A DNA stretch of 64,000 nt from Gelatoporia subvermispora B (lineage: Eukaryota > Basidiomycota > Agaricomycetes > Polyporales > Gelatoporiaceae): the NCBI GenBank assembly GCA_000320605.2, contig KB445794.1, positions 371,863-435,862 of the forward strand, written 5' to 3'. The notes beneath the pieces are model-generated. The model saw only the letters and a list, made by a program, of their open reading frames with translations. It ran no database searches and was not told where the DNA came from. This document shows, in pieces, positions 48,766 to 52,023 of the stretch. Positions within the stretch are counted from its first letter, which is position 1. Each line of letters starts with the position of its first letter. The translations under genes were made by a program, and so were the position numbers.

Positions 48766-50401
48766 AGCGTCGTATGATTTGAATGATTGAGTTGTCGTGT
48801 TATATGATTACTGTGGAGTTTGGGCGGCGTGGTATGCTGTATCGATTATATTGGGCCTATTCGATGTCTTCTGCTGCACGGGGACTCCCAAGACTGGACG
48901 AGCGTGCGACATGACTGTCGTACTGGATCTAGAAACAGTGCAAAAACCAAGGTATGTGTGTGAGCATCATCAAATAGCGCGAGAACCCATGGTTTCGATG
49001 ATCTTTGTCATGTCGCTGTGGAGTCAAGATCGAGGTATCGATTATGTAGTGCGACAAGCATGTCATGGGAAGTTCAATGTCGCTGCTGGGAGGTCTAGGA
49101 GAGAAGGCTCGGAAGAAAGGCATACGTTCAGATATGATGAAAACGTCTCCGGCCAACGTCGCGAAATGAGGGCAAGTCATCAAGGGCAAGGAGGTCACAT
49201 TCGACGAAAGACACCCCGAGTGATTGACGGCCTGGCGTCTGCAATGAACAGAAGGATGACAAGAGAAGTGTTCCGCAGTATAGTTGTCGCTCGACTCGGA
49301 AGAATAAGGATCATTTCCGCAAGCCCCTGTCTCAGCACCGACAGTGAGAAAGGACTTGGTAGGTCTCTGTCAACAGAAGAACGGAAGATATAGAACAGAA
49401 GCTTCGCCCGAGAACCCTTGCTCACCGGCAGCGCTGGCTCCTGTGTATAAGGCCCGGCGTCGTGAGCGTGATGATCAGTCTGTTCCTATCTGTCCCGCAA
49501 TCAGTTCCCCTGGGCTATCTCTCGCTGTCTGGCTGGAGAGCCTCATCCAAATACGAGGAGTTCCCGCGGAGGCAGAACGTCGTGGTCCGTGGACACATGG
49601 GGCTTGGTGAGTTGCACGGGCAGCAGTATAGTTGGAGCTCGGATCAGAGAATGGTTGCCTTGTCAGTGCAGGAAGCATGTATTGGTGTTGATGCAGATAC
49701 CTACATGCAAACAAGAGCGACTATGGTGTTGCAGCCTACCACTCAAACTCCCGCAGGTGGATCCAAATGATCTATGAGCATACTACTCACCAGCATCTTG
49801 GGTGGCAGGTCAGTGATCTAATTTCCCATCTGTGTGTTTAGTTCCAAACTCTGACCCAAAGGGATTGCATGTGAAGCACAGAAAACAATATATGGCAAGT
49901 CTTGACATATGTGAACTGCAGGTGAGTCATCGACAGCTCAATCGAGGTGGGAAATGTCAGAATGCCAGATATGGAACCTGATCTCGCCTTGGAATCTCGA
50001 GCTTGCCCCTATCACCTTTTCATGTTGACCTTTCAGTTGAGCAAAACTAGCAATTCAGGAAGACATACACAGGTAAGCACGAGACTTGGCTGCACATGTC
50101 GACCAGAATCCTCACCCTGCTGTGGCATTGCCACAGCAGGTAGAGGAATCTCGTCGATGATTGCATCCAGTCTCGCGCGAACAGATCACAGCCAGTGCAG
50201 GTTTGTTCCAGACATGCCTCCAAGAACTTGCAAACAAAAGTGACTTTCACTGGTGGCCCTCCCTAGCCCTAGAGCGATCATGTGACAGTAGTAACGCGAT
50301 CGGCGCAATGCGCGATGCGAAGCGCGACGTTTTTGAGCGTGCGTAACTCACTCCTTGCCCGCTCCTATAACAAGTCTAACTCGAGGCGTTCATACTTGCG
50401 G
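48766..50401. other. Long intergenic region with a perfect hairpin
   Basis: About 1.6 kb without a supported gene. Small ORFs at 48797-49393 and 49462-49770 show no domains. A perfect 11-bp hairpin is present at 50116-50140 and listed separately. The 3' end must hold the promoter of the chromodomain gene. Confidence 0.45.
50116..50140. repeat. Perfect 11-bp inverted repeat with 3-nt loop
   Basis: CCTGCTGTGGC at 50116-50126 and GCCACAGCAGG at 50130-50140 are exact reverse complements around ATT. It lies about 260 bases upstream of the chromodomain gene start. Its role is unknown. Confidence 0.8.
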
Positions 50402-52023
50402 ATGGTGCGGACACGCCGGGATTCCACCCCAAATACTCCCAGAGTACAGCAGGCACGGCGGCACAACACACCTGCCAGTTCATCTTGTTCGCCAAGTTCG
50501 CGCCAACCTCGATCGCGAGGATCATTCATACGTCAACCACCCCCGAAGAAGGTTAGCATCGCCGGGAAAGAGTTCCGCGTCTCGCCCGTCCTCGACACAT
50601 TCTTCTGGTTCGTCACGGAGCGCCATCGTGTGCACCAGCGCCGGCTAGCTGGCGAGCGACAACCATGGACCACGGACGAGATCTTGTCAACATACCCCTT
50701 CGCGAACGTCTTCCGTGTGTACGATCGCACGACGCAGTATATCTTGCGTCACGTCATCATGGAGGGCAGCCAGGAGCTCAACGAAATGTGCTTCCGCGTA
50801 ATACTCTTCAGGACTTTCTGCAGAATTGAGACCTGGGAGCTCCTCAAACGACGGCTGGGCAACATCACATGGAAGTCATTTAATCTCAAAGTCTACGAAG
50901 AAATCGTGCTTTCGGAGACTGCTGCTGTTTATGGACCCGCGTACATCATGCCGGCTCCTAAACTAGGCGCAACAGCAAATGCTGCTAATCATCTGCGCCT
51001 TATCGAATTGATGATGAAGGAGAAGGTCCCTTCTCGACTCAAGCAATTTGTGTATCTCAGAGACGCGCACGGGTACCTGCGCCTCTTCCCCAGCATGGGT
51101 GATTTTATCGCATTACAGTGCGTCCGGTCCCAGAATCATTACCATACATGCACGCTGATAGAGGTTTCTTAACTCGTCCCAGGCTACTCCTAGACCTTAA
51201 CATGACGCCGCATTTCCGATGGGACGAGAACACGTGGGCGGCCCTCGGCCCAGGTGCACTCATGTGCATCAAGAAGATCTTCGGCCCCGACATCCGGGGG
51301 CGCGAGTACGAGGCATTCAAGTACCTCCATGAATCCCAGGATTACCACTTCCTGCGCCTCCGCATCTCCCCCAGACAGCGTCCACGCCTGAGCGACACGA
51401 TCCCCGCCGGCCTCACGATGGTCGACATGGAACACGCGCTCTGCGAGACCGAAAAGTATTCGCGCGCGCGACACCCGAACATCTCGGGCAAGAAGATCAA
51501 GGTCGCCCGGCGGGAGTACGTCCCGCGCTCACCACCGCCAACCGCTATCCTGCCACAGCACTGGCTCGCCCCTGGAGGCATCCGGAGGCCTACCCTGCGT
51601 TGCCCGCCGCCAGTCAATCCTCACACAGACGACCCGAACCCCGAGTACGAGGTCTCGCATATCGTTGCTGAGAAACCCCACTACACGGAAGGTCCAAAAC
51701 ATTATCTCGTCCGCTGGGCGGGGTACGGTCCAAATGACGACATATGGTTACGCGAGTGCGACCTGATTGAAGGCGCTAGTGATGCCCTGAGCAAATGGCA
51801 AACAATGAAGGCGCGTATTTCGGAACGGGTCGCCGAGTACCAGGCAACAGGCGACTGTGAGGCGAGTAGCAGAACGAGCTCGATGAAACAAGGTAATAAC
51901 AGAACGACCTCAAAAAAACAAAGTAATATCGTCATTGATCTTGTAAGTCAACAAATCGCCCGAGGTACAGCCTACCACTGACATGGTTCGCAATTGTTCT
52001 AGTGTGGTTCGGACACGGAGTAA
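50402..52023 (+). CDS. Fusion protein: alpha-glutamyl/putrescinyl-thymine-pyrophosphorylase-like (5-hmdU-kinase helical type) domain plus chromodomain
   Basis: Three exons (50402-51117, 51183-51942, 52003-52023) give about 498 residues. Residues 1-50 are basic and disordered. Residues about 51-330 match, by recall of its hallmark order, the helical domain of phage thymine-hypermodification enzymes: FFWFVTERHRVHQRRLAGE, PWTTDEILSTYPFANVFRVY and FRVILFRTFCRIETWELL. Residues about 393-445 are a chromodomain (YEVSHIVAEK, YLVRWAGYGPNDDIWL) that keeps the three aromatic-cage positions (Y, W, Y). The tail IVIDLCGSDTE resembles a SUMO-interacting motif. In phages related enzymes install amino groups on phosphorylated 5-hydroxymethyl-uracil in DNA; in fungi the role is unknown. 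MVRTRR at 50402 is preferred over an upstream GTG. Confidence 0.75.

Follow-up and report, generated by a model that had tools for sequence, protein, structure and literature searches.

A phage-type thymine-hypermodification domain joined to a chromodomain in a gene of Gelatoporia subvermispora and its basidiomycete relatives

Introduction

Described relatives of the gene considered here come from phages, among other sources. In Pseudomonas phage PaMx11, the homologue of the HMUDK_hel family (Pfam PF18723, '5-hmdU DNA kinase, helical domain', where 5-hmdU stands for 5-hydroxymethyldeoxyuridine) is gp50. Its first base is the last one of the P-loop gene gp49, and a thymidylate-synthase-like gene follows it; the solved 5-phosphomethyl-deoxyuridine (5-phosphomethyl-dU) glycinyltransferase, gp46, lies upstream. 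In YuA and in Bordetella phage CN1, gp13 and gp14 form a P-loop/PF18723 pair that shares one base and lies close to a thymidylate-synthase gene; the gp13 proteins match PF18748, the 5-hmdU kinase family. On the eukaryotic side, the chromodomains of Chp1, Clr4, MPP8 and CDY are readers of trimethylated lysine 9 of histone H3 (H3K9me3). Here we describe a single gene of Gelatoporia subvermispora B, a wood-rotting polypore, in which modules of these two kinds are joined, at positions 50402-52023 on the plus strand of a 64,000-nucleotide stretch of contig KB445794.1 (hereafter the window). The fungal protein has the whole domain and the conserved core in common with phage HMUDK_hel proteins (YuA gp14, PaMx11 gp50, SP10, PhiW-14); unlike them, it has no P-loop partner that we could find, and it possesses a C-terminal chromodomain, two introns and a eukaryotic host. 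On sequence grounds, it appears to be a conserved, chromatin-linked descendant of a phage or bacterial thymine-hypermodification domain.

Eukaryotic DNA marks based on thymine are, to our knowledge, few, base J of kinetoplastids being one. Iyer 2013 is said to mention basidiomycetes in connection with this family, and the architecture is already visible in databases, given that one JGI record (P0178) is named 'alpha-glutamyl/putrescinyl thymine pyrophosphorylase clade 1/Chromo'. Among open-library papers, judged by their titles and the openings of their abstracts, we found none on the fungal protein.

Results

The gene is intact, with three exons (Table 1). After splicing of two GT..AG introns, one frame runs from the ATG at 50402 to the TAA at 52023 through 498 residues, with no internal stop. 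A preliminary description, made from the letters of the window alone, had placed a gene of this length here and had assigned its N-terminal part to the HMUDK_hel family and its C-terminal part to the chromodomains, and coordinates, length and both domains hold under profile search. A Pfam scan up to E 1 returns PF18723 at 356 bits (cut-off 25), covering profile positions 2-280 of 281, together with the chromodomain family PF00385 and nothing else, so that there is no match to PF18724. In PHROGs the domain finds a single phage family without a function, phrog_2396, at E 4.9e-43. The public record of the gene, P0001 (CERSUDRAFT_151547), agrees with our model except in the first residues, and its numbering is converted to ours by adding 6; the nearest relative, Obba rivulosa P0002, begins MVRTRQD... 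and thus backs the MVRTRRD... start of the preliminary description better than it does the annotated start of P0001.

The fusion is not peculiar to Gelatoporia. A first protein search gave 428 relatives at E <=1e-3 among 5847 candidates, and a second, seeded with three more distant fungal sequences, gave 1019 relatives among 7993 scored; the best 120 were taken from each, and from these two lists 69 fungal rows were assigned to a subfamily I and 120 to a subfamily II, with metagenome rows that bear no species name counted as fungal on account of their rank and similarity. Among the matches listed, a C-terminal chromodomain is present in 65 of the 69 subfamily I rows and in all 120 subfamily II rows, which makes it very unlikely that the two halves belong to separate genes. 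Three of the four rows without it are short (274-292 residues), and the fourth, Meripilus lineatus P0034, has 425 residues. Species retrieved for subfamily I presumably represent Polyporales, Russulales, Gloeophyllales, Jaapiales, Gomphales, Hysterangiales and Ustilaginomycotina, and those of subfamily II, again by our own assignment to orders, Agaricales, Boletales, Hymenochaetales and Sistotremastrum; the laboratory model Coprinopsis cinerea has a copy too, P0190 (CC1G_11207). The distribution among basidiomycetes that had been proposed is therefore seen, in many Agaricomycetes and some smuts, and its recurrence there in two subfamilies argues that the fusion is a conserved host gene.

In a maximum-likelihood tree of 49 rows picked from 237 proteins, each of the two subfamilies, and the bacteria likewise, falls on one side of a branch supported at 100/99, and fungal orders group together (Boletales 100/99, Polyporales 99/94, Gloeophyllales 99/93, Russulales 92/94). 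A second tree, of 72 of the 200 domain rows, separates 23/23 fungal rows from the rest by a branch with 100/99 support. The four phage rows, flagged as long branches, were omitted from both trees, and a 200-row FastTree that includes them splits the fungal group (two changes, not one); the domain set leaves aside P0040, P0067, P0068 and P0072, whose matched stretches are shorter than 230 residues. Bacterial rows form the next branch to the fungi in the 72-row tree; the trees are unrooted, and a donor cannot be named from them. Such a pattern would fit one early capture, after which copies were duplicated and lost, or two separate captures that both ended in fusion to a chromodomain.

Within the HMUDK_hel domain, 17 columns are invariant over 84 aligned fungal and bacterial rows: in P0001 numbering, R68, F94, R99, D102, Q106, R126, T138, Y171, L192, F229, Q233, G255, G257, D314, C320, E321 and Y325. 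The D, C, E and Y of the signature D-x-E-H-x-x-C-E-x-x-x-Y-x-R are invariant over the same rows. As a reference for conservation we took 100 positions kept in at least 90% of 128 bacterial rows (the 80 loci described below are included) and checked them in 68 fungal rows: 52 are kept in at least 85% of the fungal rows and 17 as the majority residue, 31 are changed, which counts against retention of the family residues, and among the 53 polar positions 28 are kept at the 85% level. The fungal E-H ahead of x-x-C-E, present in 186/189 rows (the other three have no readable motif), is replaced by Q-N in 48/48 bacterial-like rows of the protein search, a comparison from which the 80 bacterial loci, partly retrieved by a pattern containing QN, are excluded. 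Phages show both kinds: E-H in YuA, CN1 and PaMx11, E-N in Det7 and TSW001, E-G in SBSphiC, and Q-N in LuckyBarnes, the Nodularia phage, BouleyBill and SirVictor. The longer YuA/CN1/PaMx11 signature, D/E-x-E-H-x-L-C-E-x-D-K-Y-x-R, is also that of the fungal protein, and we take the phages that share the glutamate with fungi to be thymine-hypermodifying groups, from their presumed kinship to M6, ViI and SP10. The Gelatoporia protein has no Walker A motif (GxxxxGK[ST]); the pattern occurs in 1/73 rows of the first list, in the C-terminal tail of P0066, and was set aside as chance. Predicted models resemble the phage 5-phosphomethyl-dU glycinyltransferase, a queuosine salvage enzyme and DNA glycosylases, and the nearest solved folds to the helical domain are PUGT, DUF2419, AGOG, AlkA-type enzymes and OGG1. 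PUGT (ADDT, PF18724; PDB 8z2m, 8z2n) is the best of these, but it shares only 8-10% identity over the aligned part, belongs to another Pfam family and acts after the kinase, on the phosphorylated base.

In addition to the pairs of PaMx11, YuA and CN1, the Microbacterium phages BouleyBill and SirVictor have a kinase/PF18723 pair overlapping by 8 bases, Bacillus phage SBSphiC holds both halves within one 652-residue frame, and the protein search also returned bacterial proteins in which PF02223 and PF18723 are fused. Gene order, fusions and the Pfam name make the base-handling half of the phage and bacterial 5-hmdU DNA kinase the best reading of PF18723, a part fused to the P-loop kinase or encoded directly after it. 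Exceptions to this pairing are Brevibacterium phage LuckyBarnes, the top phage match of the fungal domain, where an annotated kinase is absent from the stretch examined, and the Nodularia phage, whose PF18723 gene is likewise without a kinase beside it; in LuckyBarnes (L008 5846-9861) the gene stands beside a thymidylate synthase and two glycosyltransferases. The preliminary description had spoken of an 'aGPT-PPlase/HMUDK_hel' family, and some records do call PF18723 aGPT-PPlase clade 1. The second half of that name stands. The first merges the domain with the glycine-adding enzyme, and the reading as such a transferase is rejected: the solved enzyme for a step of that kind, PaMx11 gp46, is PF18724. 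Since PF18723 corresponds to gp50 beside the kinase, and the glycine transferase to a separate family, the fungal protein on its own is no known hypermodifying enzyme.

Bacterial chromosomes hold a further set of relatives, with 33-40% identity to the fungal protein in the listed rows. A contig scan confirmed 552 loci, and the following counts come from the best 80 (L012-L091), a non-random sample of best matches to an actinobacterial query, retrieved via two peptide patterns and headed mostly by Actinomycetota. MazG_C (PF18722) lies near HMUDK_hel in 64 of them, a thymidylate-synthase-like protein in 63 and an M78 peptidase in 59. A P-loop kinase match is found near 12 (5 of them weak), either kinase or MazG_C near 70, and no match to either near 10, in stretches of 3.2 to 17.0 kb. 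The actinobacterial neighbour resembles the synthase only weakly (Pfam E 0.0017 for one protein, no match for two others, NCBIfam below cut-off), and PADLOC models gave no match for HMUDK_hel, MazG_C or the synthase-like protein in the examples tried. One locus, L017, was checked for a helix-turn-helix protein and has one. In L079 (3087-12099), HMUDK_hel occurs with a SLOG/TIR protein, two ThsB-type TIR proteins, MazG_C, a type I specificity protein and a Schlafen/AlbA protein. The recurring set of HMUDK_hel with MazG_C, the synthase-like protein and M78 peptidase is a possible system of thymine modification or defence that has yet to be characterised. In the DefensePredictor paper, MazG-C is a predicted nucleotide kinase, aGPT-Pplase and MazG-C are predicted, unvalidated defence domains, and the newly validated defence domains include 5-hydroxymethyluracil kinase and thymidylate synthase (PMC13092281).

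The chromodomain match (E 1.5e-5, 25.2 bits) is barely above its cut-off of 25.1. By sequence it comes closest, among PDB entries, to Clr4 and Chp1, and its best fold match is Chp1 with H3K9me3 (3g7l), at 36% identity over 55 residues. The aromatic cage, which the preliminary description had reported as kept, is aromatic at all three positions in every scorable fungal row (65/65 in subfamily I, 102/102 in subfamily II), in an alignment biased that way by a profile seeded with 65/189 rows picked by the aromatic pattern; in the remaining 18 subfamily II rows the first cage column is missing from the alignment, and one of these has S at the third. Fold and cage are thus common to the fungal chromodomain and to those of Chp1, Clr4, MPP8 and CDY; in contrast to these, it is joined to a DNA-base domain, and its histone specificity is predicted. 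A single Pre-SET gene occurs in the genome, and four places in it match DNA methyltransferase, so that the machinery for H3K9 and cytosine methylation is probably present.

In the genome as a whole (37.7 Mb, 52 contigs), the only PF18723 matches are two exons of this gene. Our six-frame search ignores introns, so that a miss means 'not found', not 'absent'. Within that scope the PF18748 kinase has no match, while the same search matches 4/4 phage records, 3 of them above cut-off; the PF18724 transferase and MazG_C were not found in searches run without a positive control, and TET/JBP (PF12851, PF20515) gave no match, likewise without one. One thymidylate synthase gene was found. One thymidylate-kinase-like (PF02223) gene, which lies about 435 kb from the fusion gene on the same contig, probably encodes the dTMP kinase of normal housekeeping.

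The preliminary description had mentioned relatives of this gene alongside TET/JBP oxygenases and transposons; in the present searches, run without a positive control for TET/JBP, no such link is seen. KDZ transposase occurs in at least 59 stretches of the genome (for example C12:777260-777961), despite the failure to find TET/JBP, and among the matches listed none lies in the window and only one on this contig, about 549 kb from the gene. The idea that the gene is transposon cargo is unsupported: it is the sole PF18723 gene found in the genome, the trees follow fungal orders, and repeats within 8 kb are trivial, KDZ being the one transposon class searched. In a published survey, the TET-bearing DNA transposons found in Polyporales are of the Kyakuja kind only (PMC12730594).

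Three smaller features of the locus are recorded here. An imperfect inverted repeat with 41-base arms (78%) lies at window 50087-50169, with the start codon about 230 bases downstream. The C-terminus, IVIDLCGSDTE (window 51928-52020), resembles a SUMO-interaction motif; such a pattern matches 6/73 rows of the first list, its [VL]IDL form only Gelatoporia and Obba, and we reject it as a family feature. The N-terminus fits M-[A/T/V/S/G]-R-[T/V/I/S]-[R/K] (window 50402-50416), as do 21 of the 65 M-starting rows of subfamily I against 1/108 in subfamily II, and some relatives begin exactly M-ARTK, resembling the histone H3 tail once the methionine is removed. An H3 mimic or self-ligand is possible, the 21/65 being a count without a background rate.

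Table 1. Parts of the fusion gene and of its product, in window coordinates
Feature	Position	Strand	Details
Exon 1	50402..51117	+	from ATG to GT donor; basic N-terminal region, start of HMUDK_hel
Intron 1	51118..51182	+	GTGCGT...CAG, 65 bases; splice matches P0001
Exon 2	51183..51942	+	remaining HMUDK_hel, linker, chromodomain
Intron 2	51943..52002	+	GTAAGT...TAG, 60 bases; splice matches P0001
Exon 3	52003..52023	+	final six residues CGSDTE, then stop
HMUDK_hel PF18723	50585..51486	+	residues 62-340, split by intron 1; E 1.8e-106
Signature D-x-E-H-x-x-C-E-x-x-x-Y-x-R	51424..51465	+	residues 320-333, C-terminal part of HMUDK_hel
Chromodomain PF00385	51646..51801	+	residues 394-445; aromatic cage Y394, W417, Y420

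Discussion

We favour, with a rough probability of 0.4, a reading in which the Gelatoporia protein is a heterochromatin-anchored domain that recognises 5-modified thymine, as a reader or as a targeting subunit. A captured part of a DNA-hypermodification system would here have been built into a host protein of basidiomycete heterochromatin. The chromodomain would dock on methylated histone H3, most likely at K9, and HMUDK_hel, to judge from its fold, would flip out a base and recognise, or scan for, a 5-substituted thymine, presumably 5-hydroxymethyluracil or a derivative of it. Without the P-loop kinase half, the protein would act chiefly as a reader or targeting subunit anchored on chromatin, and a modified pyrimidine would thereby be coupled to histone methylation. 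According to the preliminary description, the chromodomain would deliver a base-modifying or base-recognising activity to methylated histones. Delivery of a modifying activity is plausible; given that no kinase partner was found, recognition is no less likely.

The best-surviving alternative, which we nonetheless regard as rather unlikely, is a two-part 5-hmdU DNA kinase, in which the fungal protein would recruit a separate P-loop kinase in trans and the two would phosphorylate thymine in heterochromatin, starting hypermodification. In phages each half often has a gene of its own next to the other, the P-loop and MazG_C counts in the 80 bacterial loci suggest that the kinase half can be exchanged, and the fungal E-H signature equals that of the YuA, CN1 and PaMx11 proteins. 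Against it, the sole thymidylate-kinase-like gene found in the genome is probably the housekeeping one, there is a single thymidylate synthase, and PF18748, MazG_C, PF18724 and TET/JBP are without a match in the six-frame search.

Next in order, and unlikely as well, is an enzyme that stands alone, for example one that performs glycosylase-like excision, or a hydrolase or transferase, on 5-hydroxymethyl- or phosphomethyluracil in chromatin with methylated histones. Its attraction lies in the nearest solved folds, all of which act on a base with no P-loop partner, in polar residues that are invariant from bacteria to fungi, and in the 10 bacterial loci where neither kinase nor MazG_C is matched. 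Fold likeness shows no activity, however, a catalytic residue of the glycosylase type was not identified, and we know of no PF18723 member that acts alone. Improbable, finally, is a domain reduced to plain DNA or protein binding, its recognition of modified bases lost and the biological work left to the chromodomain, for although no modification partners were found and 31 bacterially conserved positions have changed, the 52 that are kept (28 of them polar) and the 17 invariant columns exceed what a bare scaffold would need.

Regardless of which activity the domain retains, a phage-type thymine-modification domain has been kept together with a predicted reader of histone marks across many mushroom orders and some smuts. 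Should the two subfamilies go back to two independent captures, this would be stronger evidence still that the pairing of HMUDK_hel with a chromodomain matters. The broader proposal, that mushroom-forming fungi and smuts have kept since early in these groups a chromatin-targeted system, derived from phages or bacteria, that makes or reads modified thymine in H3K9-methylated DNA, is one we advance tentatively and hold to be somewhat doubtful; if true, it would give eukaryotes a thymine mark other than base J. The recurrence of the pairing in many mushroom-forming fungi is reason to test for an unrecognised DNA mark, or a reader of one, and through this single gene the question of whether thymine is marked or read in the silent chromatin of fungi can be approached directly.
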